Of a DNA stretch of 64,000 nucleotides, positions 1,385-64,000 are shown one piece after another. The notes beneath the pieces are model-generated. The model saw only the letters and a program-made list of their open reading frames with translations. It was not told the DNA's origin and did no database searches. This DNA comes from Veillonella dispar (lineage in GTDB: Bacteria; Bacillota; Negativicutes; Veillonellales; Veillonellaceae), in the NCBI RefSeq assembly GCF_900637515.1, contig NZ_LR134375.1:1741001-1805000 (forward strand), read 5' to 3'. Within the stretch, counting starts at the first letter, position 1; every line of letters starts with the position of its first letter. Position numbers and translations under genes: made by a program.

Positions 1385-1545
1385 ATGTACTCCTTTCTTT
1401 TAATTATATCGAAAAATACAAATTTGATAATATTATTATATAACGATATGAAAGTATGGACAATGAATATCAAAATATAATTTAAACAATACGCCAATAT
1501 GTTCTAATAGCTCTTTCACATTACAAATATCCTATCCATACAAAT

Positions 1546-1584
1546 AAAAGGTACACCTATGTAGTATTATAGGCGTACCTTTAT
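1546..1584 (-). terminator. Intrinsic terminator after the zinc-ribbon gene
   Basis: A 15-base arm at 1546-1560 (AAAAGGTACACCTAT) pairs with 1569-1584 with one wobble/mismatch, around an 8-base loop. It lies 22 bases past the stop of the minus-strand gene at 1607. A/T tracts on both sides make it usable in either direction. The remaining bases between 1385 and 1545 are AT-rich, and nothing else is visible there apart from the probable promoter region of the sulfurtransferase. Confidence 0.7.
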
Positions 1585-1606
1585 ATTGTATGCTAATGTA
1601 TTTCAA

Positions 1607-2059
1607 TTATAAAAGAAAAGAATTCCCACAACGTAAACATATATATGTATGCTCCCAATCGCGACGTAATCCTGGATATGTATCTCTATTCCATACATAA
1701 CGTTGATATGTTTTGTAGATTAACAACGCATAGGCACCAAAATAAATAATTAGTGAAGCCTCATGTTTACTTAGACCGGAAATCCAAAGCAATAATACGA
1801 GACCAAATTGAATCGCAATCCACCACTTTAAAATAAATGTAGCAATCGATTTTTTCATCGGAGGTTTTGCCATCATAGAAAGTGCTGTTTGTTGAGTACC
1901 TACAGTATTGCCAATACCAACACCTACTCGACCACCAGCACCAATACCTACACCTGTAGTTACACCATTTACATTAGAAAAGCCACCAGCATAAGCAATA
2001 TTATAACTTTGAATATTTTCCGACTGACAATATGGACACACGTATGCATTCTCGCTCAT
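1607..2059 (-). CDS. Zinc-ribbon membrane protein of unknown function
   Basis: This 150-residue protein has a CPYC pair at residues 8-11 and a CLRC pair at residues 141-144, which together can form one zinc ribbon. Between them are a Gly/Val-rich flexible stretch (about residues 24-55, with repeated GVGIG-like units) and two hydrophobic segments (about 75-95 and 100-115) that look membrane-spanning. The arrangement places both metal-binding ends on the same, probably cytoplasmic, side. The function is not recognised. The gene stands alone, with a terminator on its 3' side and an AGGAGAG ribosome-binding site before the ATG. Confidence 0.65.
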   Translation of the reverse strand: MSENAYVCPYCQSENIQSYNIAYAGGFSNVNGVTTGVGIGAGGRVGVGIGNTVGTQQTALSMMAKPPMKKSIATFILKWWIAIQFGLVLLLWISGLSKHEASLIIYFGAYALLIYKTYQRYVWNRDTYPGLRRDWEHTYICLRCGNSFLL

Positions 2060-23849: not shown

Positions 23850-24600
23850 AATCAGAACCACCCGTAAAACGGGTGGTTTGCTCACGGGCTATAAGCCCGT
23901 AGTACTAGGCCAGCGTCTAAAGGCGCTGGCTTTCACTGCGTTCAAGCCGCATAGCCATTGACTCGTAACATTCCCCTTAAAGGGGATATGTATTACTTGC
24001 TACCCTTAAAAGGGTCCTCATATTCTTTTACACTAAGTTTATCTTTCATTTGGTCATGTAACTCTTGCTCACGTATATACTTCTTTACGGTAGCCTCATT
24101 TAAACCTACTGTACTAACATAATAACCCTCGGACCAAAAGTGCCTATTTCCAAATTTATACTTTAAGTTTGCGTGTTTATCGAACATCATTAGTGCACTT
24201 TTCCCCTTTAAATATCCCATAAAAGATGAAACTGATATTTTAGGTGGGATTAATACTAGCATATGCACATGATCGGCCATAAGCTCCCCCTCTATAATCT
24301 TGACGCCCTTATATTCGCATAAACGTCTCAGTATTTCACGTAAACTATTTCTGTATTGATTATATATAACTTTACGTCTATACTTAGGTGTAAATACTAT
24401 GTGGTATTTGCATAACCATTTTGTGTGCGCAAGGCTCTGTGTCTTTGTTGCCATATAAAATCACCTTTCTTTTGCATATAATGCGGCTTGAACACCTACA
24501 TTATACTTAAGCAAGGTGATTTTTTTGTATAACTTTCGTTGCCGCACCCGCATAGCGGGTGGTTTTATGATTCGCGACTACGTCGCGAACCAGTCTAAAG
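23850..24600 (-). mobile_element. IS200-type insertion sequence with hairpin ends
   Basis: The element carries a single HUH transposase gene and subterminal hairpins in place of inverted terminal repeats, as in IS200/IS605. The left side has ACCACCCGTAAAACGGGTGGT region hairpins (23858-23878, 23885-23899, 23909-23930). The right side has ACCCGCATAGCGGGT (24546-24560) and a TTCGCGAC/GTCGCGAA hairpin (24571-24589). An additional inverted pair, GTTCAAGCCGCAT (23940-23952) and its complement (24481-24493), brackets the transposase. Exact ends are estimated. No tnpB is present. Confidence 0.85.
23993..24454 (-). CDS. tnpA: IS200/IS605-family transposase TnpA (HUH Y1)
   Basis: This 153-residue protein is a Y1 single-strand transposase. 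His62-Val-His64 (ADHVHMLVLIP) is the metal-binding HUH motif and Tyr126 (TVKKYIREQE) the nucleophile. It has the family opening KYHIVFTPKYRRKVIY, and FMGYLKGKSALMMF before the tyrosine. It excises and inserts the element as single-stranded DNA at short target motifs. All catalytic residues are intact, so it may be active. The start has GAAAGGTG upstream. Confidence 0.95.
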   Translation of the reverse strand: MATKTQSLAHTKWLCKYHIVFTPKYRRKVIYNQYRNSLREILRRLCEYKGVKIIEGELMADHVHMLVLIPPKISVSSFMGYLKGKSALMMFDKHANLKYKFGNRHFWSEGYYVSTVGLNEATVKKYIREQELHDQMKDKLSVKEYEDPFKGSK

Positions 24601-58065: not shown

Positions 58066-59253
58066 ATGAATCAAGAAAATTCTGCTAAGGTTTCCTTTAT
58101 CTTGGTAGTATTCCTTGGCATGTTAACAGCCATAACACCGCTCGCAACAGATCTTTATTTACCAGCATTGCCGATTATGCCTGGCGAATTAAATACAACC
58201 GCATCTAATATTCAAATGACCATTGGTGTTATGACCTTTGGTGTTGCATTAGGCCAATTATTTGGTGGCCCTATTAGCGATACAATGGGTCGTAAATTAC
58301 CACTCATCGTAGGCAATTTACTATGTGTCATCTCTAGCATCATTTGTGCCTTTGCACCTAACATCGAAATACTTTTACTAGGTAGATTCCTACAAGGTTT
58401 AACTGGATCTGTAGGTGTTGTAATTGCCAAGGCTATCGCTCGAGACTTTGCTTCTGGTCAAGAATTGACGAAACTCTTCGCCTTACTTATGATGGTTAAC
58501 GGCTTAGCTCCAGTACTTGCCCCTCTCATAGGTGGCCAATTGCTCTTATTCACTACATGGCGTGTAATCTTTGTAATTCTAGCAGTATTCTCTGCTATTC
58601 TATTAGTAGGCTCACTTCTATTCCGTGAAAGCTTACCAAAAGAAAAACGTATTACAGGCGGTGTAGGTGTAGCAGTTAAAAATTATATTACCCTCATCAA
58701 AGATAAGCCATTCTTAGGTCAAACATTAATACAATTATTTGCCTTTGGCGGATTTTTTGCTTATATATCAGGTTCATCCTTTGTATACCAAAATATTTTT
58801 AATCTTTCCGCTCAAGAATTTAGCTATCTTTTCGGTATTAACAGCTGTGGTATTGTCTTAGCTAGTGCCATTAGTAGTCGTGTCAGTAATGTTATAACAG
58901 CTAAACAATTACTAACATTCAGCCTATGGCAACTTACAATTGGTTCCTTACTATTCTTAATTGCTATGATTTTCGAATGGTCACTCATCCCTGTAACAAC
59001 CATCCTATTCTTTACCGTATGTACCGTATCCCTATTCGGCTCCGCCTCATTCTCTATGGCGATGACCAACTACGGGAAAATGGCAGGCAGTGCCTCTGCC
59101 ATACTCGGCTTTGCAAGCATGTTTGCGGCAGGTATTGTATCTCCACTCGTTGGTATTGGTGGGGATCATACGGGGATACCCATGGGGATTACAATGCTAG
59201 TATGTGCAGTGCTTTCCTTATTGTGCCTATATGGTTTAGTTGAAAAAGAATAA
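58066..59253 (+). CDS. bcr: Bcr/CflA-family multidrug efflux transporter (MFS)
   Basis: This 395-residue protein has 12 helices and the DHA1 family features: TPLATDLYLPALPIMPGELN (residues 25-44), MFS motif A GGPISDTMGRKLPLIVG, and motif C-like MMVNGLAPVLAPLIGGQLL. It exports drugs by proton antiport; relatives handle bicyclomycin, chloramphenicol or sulfonamides, and the substrate is not known here. AGGAGG stands 7 bases before the ATG. The leader terminator suggests regulated read-through. Confidence 0.88.
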   Translation: MNQENSAKVSFILVVFLGMLTAITPLATDLYLPALPIMPGELNTTASNIQMTIGVMTFGVALGQLFGGPISDTMGRKLPLIVGNLLCVISSIICAFAPNIEILLLGRFLQGLTGSVGVVIAKAIARDFASGQELTKLFALLMMVNGLAPVLAPLIGGQLLLFTTWRVIFVILAVFSAILLVGSLLFRESLPKEKRITGGVGVAVKNYITLIKDKPFLGQTLIQLFAFGGFFAYISGSSFVYQNIFNLSAQEFSYLFGINSCGIVLASAISSRVSNVITAKQLLTFSLWQLTIGSLLFLIAMIFEWSLIPVTTILFFTVCTVSLFGSASFSMAMTNYGKMAGSASAILGFASMFAAGIVSPLVGIGGDHTGIPMGITMLVCAVLSLLCLYGLVEKE

Positions 59254-59273
59254 TCTATTTTACATTTGTGTAC

Positions 59274-59420
59274 GTCCCACAATGGGGCCCAACTACAACA
59301 GAATATTATTAGTATATAAATAAGATACCCCTTTCCTTGCTCAGTACTTCGTAAAATCGCTTCGGAAAGGGGTATCTTATTTATATTAACACTACCTGTG
59401 AAGGCGTCCCATTGCGGGAC
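59274..59420. repeat. Nested palindromic repeat, copy 1
   Basis: An inner perfect 23-bp stem (59314-59336 with 59364-59386, including AAGATACCCCTTTCC) encloses a 27-base loop that contains GCTCAGTAC and CGTAAAATCGCT. Outer arms GTCCCACAATGGG (59274-59286) and CCCATTGCGGGAC (59408-59420) pair with one wobble. Its bases from AATGGGGCCC to GCTCAG align with the reverse complement of copy 2, so the two are members of one family in opposite orientation. Confidence 0.85.
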
Positions 59421-59513
59421 TATACAAGCATACTTCAAAATAGATTACTTCTTATTCCCTACAAACACCATAAGCACAATAAAAGAAAGCTACTGTCCAA
59501 CTGGTTGTAAACG

Positions 59514-59544
59514 AAAGGAGATGTGGCATAGCCACATCTCCTTT
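59514..59544. terminator. Strong hairpin terminator between repeats
   Basis: AAAGGAGATGTGGC (59514-59527) pairs perfectly with 59531-59544 around ATA. T-rich bases follow on the plus strand (CTCC between), and a short CG-TTT on the minus strand. It may end one of the two converging transcripts. Confidence 0.6.
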
Positions 59545-59562
59545 CTCCCCCTCCCATCTCCG

Positions 59563-59891
59563 TTAGGTGTATTGCTAATTTTTTATAATAAATAATGAGA
59601 TAACAAACTCGATGGAGCTATTAGGGATATAGTAGATTGGATTACTTACATTTTATAATGGGACATCTTCATAGCCGAGTGTATATAGAAAAGAATACAG
59701 CCCTCTCTGCAGCGATTTTACGGAGCGTAGTGACGTACCTGAGCCAAGAGAGGGCTGTATTTTTTCTATACTAATGATATGCAGTTGTATCCGGGCCCCA
59801 TTATAAAATGAAAGCACCTTATCGCTTATTTACAATAGCTCCATCGAGTTACACAACTATTATTGGGGCTAAAATTAGCAATACATCTAAC
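59563..59891. repeat. Nested palindromic repeat, copy 2 (about 330 bases)
   Basis: Five sets of arms are nested around one centre: GTTAGGTGTATTGCTAATTT (59563-59582) with 59871-59891, one mismatch; AACTCGATGGAGCTATT (59606-59622) with 59834-59850, perfect; CATTTTATAATGGG (59649-59662) with 59797-59810, perfect; and AATACAGCCCTCTCT (59694-59708) with 59747-59761, perfect, extended by AGAAAA-type flanks. The 38-base loop, read on the minus strand, has GCTCAGGTAC and CCGTAAAATCGCT, as in copy 1. No protein is encoded. It resembles a miniature inverted-repeat element. Confidence 0.88.
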
Positions 59892-59924
59892 ATGGCCCCA
59901 TTGAAAATATAACGGAGCATTCCT

Positions 59925-62900
59925 TTATTCAAACATGGTCGATAGTAATAGTTTCAAGCGGTTTGCTTGGTTTACTGCACTGGAGCCTGGATCGTAGTCG
60001 ATGGCAGCAATGCGCACGTCTGGGTAGGCAGCGGATAGTGTTTTTACCATGCCTTTACCTGTTACGTGGTTTGGTAAGCAACCGAATGGTTGCAAGCATA
60101 CGATTTGTTTTGCCCCTTTTTCGATGAGGTCAATCATATCGCCTGTGAGGAACCAGCCTTCACCGCATTGGTTACCAAGGCCAATGTATTGAGCTGCTTC
60201 TTTTGCTACTTCTGTCATACGTTGTAGAGGGTCGAAGTGTTTAGACGCTGCTACGGCTTTAGCGTATGGCAAGCGGTAAAGTTCAAGGGCTTCACGAGCC
60301 AATGTACCGAAGAAGCCAGATAGCCATGTACCATCAAGGTGTTTAGCACGGTATGTGCTATCCATTGCGCAGTACAAGAAGAAGTCTAATAAACCAGATG
60401 TAACGACTTCGCCACCTTCTTTTTCAATGAGTTCATTGATATGGTTGTTAGCACTTGGGTGGAATTTAACGTAAATTTCCCCTACGACGCCAACGCGAGG
60501 TTTTTGTACATCTTTATTGACCGGCAAGTTATCAAAGTCATGAATGATTTCTTTGATGTACTTATTATACTGACGAAGGCTGGCAGATGTAATGTTTTCA
60601 CGTAATTTTTTAATCCAGTAATCACATAATGCATCTGTAGAGCCTGGGTTAGTTTCGTAAGGACGTGTAGCCAATACGCATTGCATGAGGGCATCACCGT
60701 AGACAACGGCTTGAATCATGCGATGCAAGAAACCTTTTGTCAATTTGAAGCCTGGTTGACGTTCCATATCGCTTGCATTAAGAGATAGAATTGGCACTTG
60801 TTTCATACCAGCGTCAATCAATGCTTTACGCAAATAGCCAATATAGTTTGTAGCACGGCAACCACCACCTGTTTGAGAGATGATAACAGCTGTTTTATCG
60901 ATATCATATTTGCCAGATAATAGTGCAGACATGAGCTGACCAACAACGATAATCGCTGGGTAACATGCATCATTATTGATATATTTCAAGCCCACTTCAA
61001 TATCGTCACGCGTTGGTGCTGGCAACATTTCAAAGTTATAGCCTTCATTTTTGAGGACTGGATCTAAGAGGCTAAAATGCAATGGTGACATTTGTGGCAC
61101 CAAGATTTTATAGGTCTTACGCATTTCCTCTGTAAACACCACGCGATTATAATCGTAGGTTGGCAATTGTTCTTCCACCACTTCTGGTGCCTCTGGGTTG
61201 TGATGACGACGCAAGCTACGTTCCATTACAGATTGCAATGAACGCAAACGAATCGTTACAGCCCCAAGGTTTGTACCTTCGTCAATTTTGAGTAAGGTAT
61301 GAATTTTATGGTTTGCTGAAAGTATATCTTTTACTTGATCCGCTACGATAGAGTCGAGGCCACAACCGAAGGAGTTGAGCTCAACAATTTGGAAGCCTTC
61401 TGTTCTACTTACGAATTCAGCAGCGCGATATAGACGGCTATGGTAAGACCATTGGTCTACAACACGTAGATGCTTGATTTCATTCCCCAGTGGCGCAACG
61501 CCATCTTCTGTAAGAACAGCCATACCAAGGGATGTAATAAGCTCTGGGATACCGTGATTAATACCAGAGTCCAAATGGTATGGACGGCCAGCTAATACGA
61601 TAGTAGGAATTTGTTCTGCTACGAGGCGAGATACTGTTTTCTTTGTCGTTTCACGGTAAGAAGCCTTACAATTTTCTTGTTCTTCCCACGCTTTTTCAAC
61701 AGCGTTAGCAATATCTTTCTTCTTGAGATTCAAGAAGTCCAATGCTTTCACAAGAGCAGGAACAAGAGATTTCTTATCAGCTAACGGCAAGAATGGTGCA
61801 TGGAATGGAGTATCTCCTAACACGTCTTGCATGTTGTTTTTAATAAGTTCTGGATAGGAAATAACCATTGGACAATGGTAATTATTGTCGCGGCTAAATT
61901 CCTTAGGGCCATGTTGAATACAAGGGTACCAAACAAAGTCTACCTGTGCATTCGCAAGATCGCGAATATGACCATGAACAGCTTTTGCTGGATAGCAAGC
62001 TGTATCGGATGGGATTGTATCGATAGCCTTGTTGTATTGGTCCTTCGTTGTGTAATCGGAAAGGATTACTTCATAGCCAAGTGTATTAAAGAATGTAAAC
62101 CAGAATGGGAAATCCTCATACATGTTGAGGACGCGAGGAATACCTACGCGCATTTTACCTTCGAACTCTGGAATATTTTTCTTTAAGTAGTAGTCGAAGT
62201 AACGACGCAATTTAACATCTACTAAGTTAGGAACTGCTTTGCGTTCCTCTTGAATCATACCGCCTGCACCGCGGTCACAACGGTTACCCGTTACATAGGT
62301 ACGACCATCGGAGAAAGCGTTGATGGTAAGCATACAATTATTAGAGCAAAGTCCACAATTGCGCATTGTCGTAGATACTTGTAAGGAGTTAAGACCATTG
62401 CTATCGAGCAAAGTACTTTTTTCCTTTTGTAACTCTTCTGCCGTTTCAGCTGCAAGAAGGGCCATACCATACGCACCCATCAAGCCAGATACGTCAGGAC
62501 GAATTACTTCTACGCCCATCAATTTCTCAAAGGCACGCAATACGGATTCATTGTAGAATGTACCGCCTTGTACAACGATATGATCGCCCAATTCTTTAGG
62601 ATCTTTTACCTTAAGAACCTTATAAAGGGCATTTTTAATAACAGAGTAAGCAAGACCTGCCGCGATATCTTGTACCGTAGCACCTTCTTTTTGAGCCTGC
62701 TTAACCTTAGAGTTCATAAATACGGTACAACGAGACCCCAAGTCGATTGGCAAGGATGCCAACAAACCTTCCTTCGCGAATTGGTCGATTGGAATGCGTA
62801 GACCGGATGCGAATGTATCGATGAAGGAACCACAACCAGAGGAACATGCTTCGTTCAATACGATATCTTCGATATAGCCATCGCGAACCTTACAGCATTT

Positions 62901-64000
62901 CATATCTTGACCGCCGATGTCCAAGATAAAGGAAACATCAGGGCAGAAGTAGCGAGCTGCACGATAGTGAGCCATTGTTTCTACTTCACCGATATCGATG
63001 CCAAGGGCGCGTTTAAGGAACGCTTCGCCGTAACCCGTTACACCAGAATGCGCAATATAAGCGCCTTTTGGTAAAAGTTCATAAATTTTCTCGATCATTT
63101 CACGAGATTTTTCTAACGGTTTACCATGGTTTGGACCATAGTGAGAGAAGATAATTTCCTTATTACTATTGATGAGAACTACCTTAAGTGTAGTAGAACC
63201 AGCATCAATACCAAGGTAACAAGGACCTTGCGCATCTTCAATATTTGCTTTTGGCGTTACTGCCTTAGCATGACGAGCGCGGAATTCTTCTAATTCTTGT
63301 TCATTTTTAAATAGAGGTTCTACACGATCTGTAGCCTCCATAGGAATACCGATGAGGGCACCGATTTCTTTTGTTAATTGACCAACTGTAATCTCACGAC
63401 AGTCTTCTTTCATCAAAGCCGCCCCTAAAGCGATGAACAATTCACCATTCTCAGGGATAATGCGATGCGCTTCATCTAGTTCTAAGGTATCGCAGAAGCA
63501 TTGGCGCAATTCAGACAAGAATGTCAATGGACCGCCAAGGAACGCTACATTACCTTCAATTTTATGACCGCATGCAAGGCCCGCAATTGTTTGGTTTACA
63601 ATCGCTTGGAATACGGATTTTGCAATATTTTCATGAGATGCGCCTTGGTTTAACAAAGCTTGTACGTCTGTTTTAGCAAATACGCCACAGCGTGCTGCAA
63701 TTGGATAAATCGTATCAGCATTCATGGCCAATTGGTTAAGACCAGATGCATCAGTTTGCAATAAAGTCGCCATTTGGTCGATGAAAGCACCTGTACCACC
63801 TGCACAAGAACCATTCATACGGTGTTCTGCCGTTTGACCTAAATAGGTTACCTTCGCATCTTCACCACCAAGTTCGATGATAACATCAGTTTCTGGATAC
63901 AATGCTTTTACAGCACGTGTTTCAGCAATAACCTCTTGTACGAATGGAATGCGTACCTTTTCAGCCATCGCCATACCACCAGAACCGGTAATACATACAT
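59925..64000 (-). CDS. 2-hydroxyacyl-CoA dehydratase activator-type protein, very large (5' end outside the window)
   Basis: At least 1358 residues are visible; the frame stays open to the window edge (ITGSGGMAMAEK), so the first part is missing. Domains in order: a first ASKHA ATPase part (GSGG, IIELGGEDAKVTYL, GSCAGGTGAFIDQMA), a complete second ASKHA domain (YLGIDAGSTTLKVVLI near 63200, LDIGGQDMKC, ACSSGCGSFID), a DUF2229 domain (MRVGIPRVLNMYEDFPFW near 62150), and a C-terminal region like the HgdB/FldC dehydratase subunit with several cysteines. Activators hydrolyse ATP to push an electron into the dehydratase. The substrate is unknown. Its stop faces the palindromic repeats. Confidence 0.88.
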   Translation of the reverse strand, partial: VCITGSGGMAMAEKVRIPFVQEVIAETRAVKALYPETDVIIELGGEDAKVTYLGQTAEHRMNGSCAGGTGAFIDQMATLLQTDASGLNQLAMNADTIYPIAARCGVFAKTDVQALLNQGASHENIAKSVFQAIVNQTIAGLACGHKIEGNVAFLGGPLTFLSELRQCFCDTLELDEAHRIIPENGELFIALGAALMKEDCREITVGQLTKEIGALIGIPMEATDRVEPLFKNEQELEEFRARHAKAVTPKANIEDAQGPCYLGIDAGSTTLKVVLINSNKEIIFSHYGPNHGKPLEKSREMIEKIYELLPKGAYIAHSGVTGYGEAFLKRALGIDIGEVETMAHYRAARYFCPDVSFILDIGGQDMKCCKVRDGYIEDIVLNEACSSGCGSFIDTFASGLRIPIDQFAKEGLLASLPIDLGSRCTVFMNSKVKQAQKEGATVQDIAAGLAYSVIKNALYKVLKVKDPKELGDHIVVQGGTFYNESVLRAFEKLMGVEVIRPDVSGLMGAYGMALLAAETAEELQKEKSTLLDSNGLNSLQVSTTMRNCGLCSNNCMLTINAFSDGRTYVTGNRCDRGAGGMIQEERKAVPNLVDVKLRRYFDYYLKKNIPEFEGKMRVGIPRVLNMYEDFPFWFTFFNTLGYEVILSDYTTKDQYNKAIDTIPSDTACYPAKAVHGHIRDLANAQVDFVWYPCIQHGPKEFSRDNNYHCPMVISYPELIKNNMQDVLGDTPFHAPFLPLADKKSLVPALVKALDFLNLKKKDIANAVEKAWEEQENCKASYRETTKKTVSRLVAEQIPTIVLAGRPYHLDSGINHGIPELITSLGMAVLTEDGVAPLGNEIKHLRVVDQWSYHSRLYRAAEFVSRTEGFQIVELNSFGCGLDSIVADQVKDILSANHKIHTLLKIDEGTNLGAVTIRLRSLQSVMERSLRRHHNPEAPEVVEEQLPTYDYNRVVFTEEMRKTYKILVPQMSPLHFSLLDPVLKNEGYNFEMLPAPTRDDIEVGLKYINNDACYPAIIVVGQLMSALLSGKYDIDKTAVIISQTGGGCRATNYIGYLRKALIDAGMKQVPILSLNASDMERQPGFKLTKGFLHRMIQAVVYGDALMQCVLATRPYETNPGSTDALCDYWIKKLRENITSASLRQYNKYIKEIIHDFDNLPVNKDVQKPRVGVVGEIYVKFHPSANNHINELIEKEGGEVVTSGLLDFFLYCAMDSTYRAKHLDGTWLSGFFGTLAREALELYRLPYAKAVAASKHFDPLQRMTEVAKEAAQYIGLGNQCGEGWFLTGDMIDLIEKGAKQIVCLQPFGCLPNHVTGKGMVKTLSAAYPDVRIAAIDYDPGSSAVNQANRLKLLLSTMFE

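Follow-up and report, generated by a model that had tools for sequence, protein, structure and literature searches.

The gap between two convergent genes of Veillonella dispar carries two members of a dispersed family of hairpins, in which the stems change from locus to locus while the tip stays conserved. From sequence comparison we tentatively read these elements, at a rough probability of 0.45, as bidirectional terminator hairpins with a tip that would bind a factor, found mainly on the origin side of the chromosome and with stems that would be kept by template switching. The window, that is, the whole stretch of 64,000 nucleotides analyzed, covers G000:C1:1741001-1805000, where G000 is the genome carrying it (a single contig of 2,116,915 bases, of the same genus as Veillonella parvula SKV38, V. 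rogosae, and V. infantium). Every count given below rests on genome search tools and sampled stretches.

The gap (59254-59924) lies between an MFS gene on the plus strand and an activase gene on the minus strand and contains unit A, a plain hairpin, and unit B, the last inside an outer hairpin (Table 1). The sequence-only reading had placed two large palindromes here, and both are present: the folds of unit A (-69.6 kcal/mol, z -10.6, 0 of 200 shuffles as good) and of the element of about 330 nt at 59562-59891 (-126.5 kcal/mol, z -11.3, 0 of 100 shuffles as good) are 10 to 11 standard deviations better than those of shuffles. The segments said to be common to both in opposite orientation each occur once per unit, CGTAAAATCGCT at 59350-59361 on the plus strand and 59711-59722 on the minus strand, with no other occurrence in the window, and AATGGGGCCC at 59281-59290 on the plus strand and 59793-59802 on the minus strand. 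As for the second copy of about 329 bases, the nested arm pairs claimed for it are real (59562-59582/59871-59891, 59606-59622/59834-59850, 59645-59662/59797-59814, and 59690-59708/59747-59765), but it is not one element: unit B (59645-59814) sits inside an unrelated outer hairpin (59562-59891), which is decayed or half-lost in other species (sequences of G008, G011, G012, and G013). The outer GTTAGGT..ATCTAAC arms are oriented inside-out, for which reason an integron attC-like reading was rejected. Facing pairs of units with a short hairpin between them occur at three loci (the window; 1885 kb; and 258 kb in G000 or 311-313 kb in G008/G013). A short purine-armed hairpin lacking a T-run was seen between facing units at three independent loci (window 59513-59545 and the spacers of L116 and L125).

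Table 1. Features of the convergent gap and of its bordering genes, in window coordinates
Feature	Coordinates	Strand	Details
MFS transporter gene	58066..59253	+	3' end faces unit A
2-hydroxyacyl-CoA dehydratase-type activase gene	59925..63974	-	3' end (59925) faces unit B; open frame runs past the start given here
Unit A, complete family member	59269..59425	+	157 nt; model R1 172.1 bits, R2 140.6 bits; fold z -10.6
Unit A outer stem P1, left arm	59274..59286	+	Closes on AATGGGGCCC (59281-59290); from sequence; compensatory changes, alignment A1 columns 6-13
Unit A outer stem P1, right arm	59408..59420	+	GTCCCATT at 59406-59413; from sequence; compensatory changes
Unit A inner stem P3, terminator-like	59314..59386	+	Perfect 23-bp arms 59314-59336 and 59364-59386; 100% complementary
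Unit A conserved tip, TTGCTCAGTACTTCGTAAAATCGCTTC	59337..59363	+	From sequence and cross-copy comparison
Plain 15-bp hairpin between units A and B	59513..59545	.	Inverted-repeat pair
Outer nested hairpin around unit B	59562..59891	.	Arm pairs and fold; locus-specific, not related to the unit family
Unit B, complete family member	59645..59814	-	About 157-170 nt; model R1 174.5 bits, R2 115.4 bits
Unit B inner stem P3	59690..59765	-	59690-59708 with 59747-59765, 95% complementary; A/T-rich base on both strands
Unit B conserved tip	59709..59746	-	Minus strand contains GGCTCAGGTACGTCACTACGCTCCGTAAAATCGCTGC

Across the family, variable outer arms (P1, about 14 pairs on average) close on ATGGGGCCC/GTCCCAT, and the inner stem (P3, about 21 pairs), which also varies between loci, has an A-rich 5' base and a T-rich 3' base (A5-6/T5-6). 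The tip reads GCTCC, a small variable hairpin, and AAGTCGC, with the form GCTCAG...CGTAAAATCGCT in the window subfamily. That the arms differ around a conserved loop, as had been proposed, is confirmed between loci, and the tip, with columns invariant or nearly so (alignment A3), is the best conserved part. Its mini-hairpin has a mean stem of 3.09 against 2.46 in shuffles (0 of 500 as long). A tip that is both conserved and structured suggests recognition by something in the cell. Simpler terminators have only P3 and the tip in common with the family.

The genes flanking the gap are conserved across the genus, and seven other Veillonella species have copies here too, the orthologous gap holding one to several units in G005, G006, and G008 to G013. 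The inner hairpin of unit A has been lost in G005, and the G008 gap has extra truncated tandem copies, while the short gap of G001 to G004 and G014 has at most one ordinary hairpin. The terminator that is simple in G014 carries, in G003, another hairpin within its loop. Compensatory changes are seen in 20 of 45 predicted pairs among 15 units of this locus. Local duplication and deletion in the palindrome array are seen at L056 5418-5912 (G008), where left halves of unit B with its outer hairpin stand truncated and in tandem.

Within each genome blastn finds the window subfamily at this locus only, which suggested a single-locus element; covariance models overturned that. The model built from window-locus units only (R1) matches units at other loci with E values down to 1e-15, and the model built from units across loci (R2) detects the family in 13 of the 15 Veillonella genomes, with no members in G002 and G007, so the suspected Veillonella family does have other copies. 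Because R2 was derived from the 21-unit alignment, its fit to that alignment is partly by construction, and independent support comes from slid controls, shuffled controls, and genome-wide matches. Outside the genus, R2 gave only weak matches, up to about 47 bits, in two sister genera (L157-L163), where the CTCC..AAGTCGC tip is kept and the stems and the rest differ. Copies at different loci are strongly diverged, their stems completely so, and the dispersed copies are old; the copy at 158 kb in G000 has no inner hairpin. Weak model matches at window 1505-1628 and at 1313 kb in G000 proved on inspection to be coding or plain hairpins, and pattern matches in other bacteria (Marinobacter, Scytonema, and others) were treated as chance. 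An Rfam RNA family was rejected, as the window region reached at best 31.9 bits against a threshold of 80 in Rfam 15 and none of ten further loci had a match at gathering score. A phage or plasmid origin was likewise rejected, blastn giving no match in phages for one other family member and none in plasmids for the whole window gap; when viral contigs were scanned with a loose pattern, many matches appeared, probably chance ones given the size of that collection. The family is apparently undescribed: it was not found in the papers open to search, which is weak evidence of absence since most subscription papers lie outside that coverage, and the available part of a structured-RNA survey reports the Veillonella motifs ilvD and potE and does not mention it (PMC8632094).

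Members stand mostly just after genes, downstream of many unrelated ones. In 46 of 61 cases, a count that includes orthologues and some overlapping matches, the tip reads the same way as the gene upstream, with the stop usually 20-100 nt away. In the window, the unit A tip reads with the MFS gene and the unit B tip with the activase gene. Exceptions are second members of pairs, oriC members, L123/L128 in a divergent gap, and one orthologue flipped in place. The units have the features of an intrinsic terminator, namely, a stem with a T-run (A5-6/T5-6 bases) and a position after stops. A terminator consensus scan returned nothing at the window units because it allows only 3-8 nt loops.

The arms covary, so here too the earlier proposal stood: among 21 units from many loci there are 187 double-changed cells against 60 in shuffles. 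In the same units 89.7% of cells pair, against 67% when shuffled and 42-49% with the partner slid, and the covariation of the alignment is 0.589 against 0.175 in the control. Mismatches are rare in the stems. On the tip strand (the one with CTCC..AAGTCG) P3 has 1,101 Watson-Crick pairs, 4 G.U, and 29 A.C, which visual inspection brings down to about 15 A.C and 4 G.U independent events, whereas ordinary terminator-like hairpins of G000 have 13 G.U and 2 A.C on the T-tail strand. This reversed bias suggests that the main constraint lies elsewhere than in the mRNA-sense stem, namely, on the opposite strand or at the level of DNA; any RNA constraint on the stem would act on the strand opposite to the mRNA of the upstream gene. 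One arm pair appears in orthologues as G-C, A.C, and A-T (L132, L116, and L138), and the tip is flipped in place between the orthologues L118 and L133. Paired arm changes without wobble intermediates, together with spacer flips, are known marks of replication template switching (PMC8794818, PMC8604942). Arms that covary and yet have so few non-Watson-Crick pairs point to correction as DNA in this way, which probably accounts for much of the covariation; the covariation alone is therefore not proof of RNA structure. Even with no RNA selection, template switching can maintain perfect stems, but conservation of the tip is beyond its reach, so that the tip most likely has a function of its own.

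The family also has a preferred position on the chromosome. In G000, where dnaA lies at base 346, the pattern CTCC-N10-AAGTCG has 18 matches, 12 of them at hairpin tips and the other six without a matching hairpin. The 12 hairpin-borne tips form eight loci, none of them farther than 323 kb from dnaA and the oriC gap among them; with three R2 loci added, the 11 hairpin-verified loci all stay inside a distance of 407 kb (mean direction -7 degrees, Rayleigh p=5e-4). Across five complete genomes, counting orthologues repeatedly, 28 of 34 R2 loci lie in the origin-proximal 40%, two between, and four near the terminus, and near-terminus members occur in three of the five. The significance depends on hairpin verification, full in G000 only, because the Rayleigh test on all pattern matches, chance ones included, is weak per genome (p 0.01-0.29). 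Most loci fetched from G003 and G014 have matches in stretches on the origin side of G000, and for no locus is the best match terminus-side. Hairpins with a 20-39-nt loop numbered 0 in 400 kb of terminus-side sequence and 22 in 464 kb of origin-side sequence, some of the latter stretches having been chosen for known matches; the origin bias is thus carried by the genome-wide pattern and model searches and not by this sampled count. IS200-like copies have no such origin concentration. Directly upstream of dnaA, in the oriC gap of G000 (L251 18337-19283), we observed three nested tip-motif hairpins, two of them with outer arms ATTGATGTTACGTTT/AAACGTAACATCAAT.

Under the terminator reading, the inner stem, with its A-rich 5' and T-rich 3' base, would form in nascent RNA from either side and end transcription. 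The tip (CTCC, small hairpin, AAGTCG), whose conservation is observed, would be the binding site of a putative protein or other factor, which may see it as RNA or as extruded DNA, with the stem sequences left free to change. Template switching would copy one arm from the other, giving near-perfect stems and occasionally flipping the tip; we infer this step from the paired arm changes, the very few wobble pairs, and the one flip. The concentration in the origin half, itself observed, may perhaps reflect a relation of the factor or its benefit to that domain. Several findings stand against this reading. A simple mRNA reading is at odds with the wobble-pair bias, L123/L128 lie between divergent genes, members in the oriC gap have no annotated gene needing a terminator, and at least two codirectional loci have antisense second members (L116 A and the 258-kb B).

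If the hairpins were plain terminators by descent, an ancestral long-loop terminator would have been duplicated around the origin, and its tip would have no function of its own, its conservation being due to recency and arm correction; most members do lie directly after stops, and DNA-level correction explains the covariation without RNA selection. This seems to us quite improbable, because an unpaired tip is out of reach of arm correction and still shows the best conservation, both among paralogues and in the weak sister-genus matches, while the stems of the same copies have diverged completely. The hairpins could instead serve the architecture of the origin domain by marking or folding the origin half, either in the form of DNA cruciforms or, like E. 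coli REP325/naRNA4 with HU, as RNA associated with the nucleoid. Such a role would suit their near-perfect DNA palindromes, an A.C/G.U pattern unlike that of an mRNA stem, and the origin-centered distribution in five complete genomes, three tips in the G000 oriC gap included; we hold it to be unlikely, since a double-stranded DNA site need not follow gene direction and members lie near the terminus in three of those genomes.

The sequence-only reading had also offered a miniature or mobile element. Against mobility, blastn places the subfamily at one locus per genome, dispersed copies are diverged, and Y1 copy number does not track the units. In its fullest form, a selfish single-strand hairpin would be acted on at its ssDNA tip by a transposase-like enzyme in trans, as proposed for REPIN/RAYT, with copies spreading into or beside hairpins near the origin and nesting. 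The family is indeed dispersed and its copies nested, some lack the inner hairpin (158 kb in G000; unit A of G005), one tip sits on unrelated stems, and site occupancy differs by species (220 nt at L414 against 37 nt in G000; L408). Occupied and unoccupied orthologous gaps are both seen, their sequences too diverged to call a target-site duplication, and neither a junction nor an autonomous partner was identified. Copies at different loci are strongly diverged; orientation tracks the upstream gene and position tracks the origin, neither expected of random insertion. Mobilization by Y1/RAYT was rejected on copy numbers (G008, no Y1_Tnp copies and many units; G007, 14 matches and no units), and we consider a selfish origin doubtful. 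One of the nine equal-scoring IS200-like Y1 transposase genes of G000 lies in the window, at 24065-24421.

With terminators bearing a factor-binding tip as the preferred reading, comparison with known systems shows what sets the family apart. Veillonella is naturally competent, and as with Neisseria DNA uptake sequences a conserved motif stands at terminator hairpins of a naturally competent genus. Uptake sequences, however, have hundreds to thousands of copies (PMC2346458) and form an inverted pair in the arms, whereas the Veillonella motif lies in the loop; with 18 pattern matches in G000, about 12 of them hairpin-borne, it is too rare for one. REP, BIME, and REPIN elements (with RAYT) are likewise dispersed extragenic palindromes, frequently in inverted pairs and often at gene 3' ends. 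A REP conserves its short palindrome and bears a GTAG or CGTC tag at one of its ends (PMC3733652), while here the stems are free, conservation lies in the tip and in ATGGGGCCC/GTCCCAT, and a conserved palindromic core is lacking. Copies number about 10-20 and not hundreds, they are origin-sided, and no RAYT pattern was found with them (Y1_Tnp is absent from the unit-rich G008, and the nine IS200-like copies of G000 are spread round the genome). Terminator stems with conserved tips such as HRC-8-4 are alike in the terminator-like stem and well-conserved tip nucleotides (PMC8632094); those are cis elements of defined genes, whereas this family follows many unrelated genes, has one or two extra nested stems, and is origin-biased. 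E. coli REP325/naRNA4, likewise a palindromic extragenic repeat, has a proposed role in nucleoid organization as RNA and via DNA cruciforms (PMC6907758).

Dispersed bacterial palindromes as a rule conserve the palindrome; in this family the stem is free and the tip fixed, so that the tip could readily serve as bait for a binding factor. An origin-sided distribution is not what repeats usually show, and the arms, both changing with very few wobble intermediates, offer a clean natural case of template switching imitating RNA covariation. A wider reading, which we think improbable, is an origin-domain marking system of Veillonella and perhaps its family, in which near-perfect gene-end hairpins with a shared tip, bound by a putative factor as RNA or extruded DNA, would link the ends of transcripts, or the folding of DNA, to the origin half.

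In G003 and G014, which probably represent the V. atypica group, the same tip with a 42-nt GC-rich insert occurs on unrelated stems at no fewer than 12 loci. At L400-L417 (G003, G014, and G009) the 42-nt sequence, ACCGGCCGGGTCTGACTCCGGCC..CAGGGCC, stands in the tip on unrelated perfect stems and looks like an insertion into the tip. A tip variant, GACACGCTANNGCGCTAAAGCGG..CCCGAAGTC, was found on hairpins near family members in the L403 and L415 gaps, and at L406 (G003 C11, near 197 kb) a tip hairpin is followed downstream by a tandem array of roughly 60-nt repeats (TAGAACAGGCGTGTACTAATTTAAGAAAGG...).
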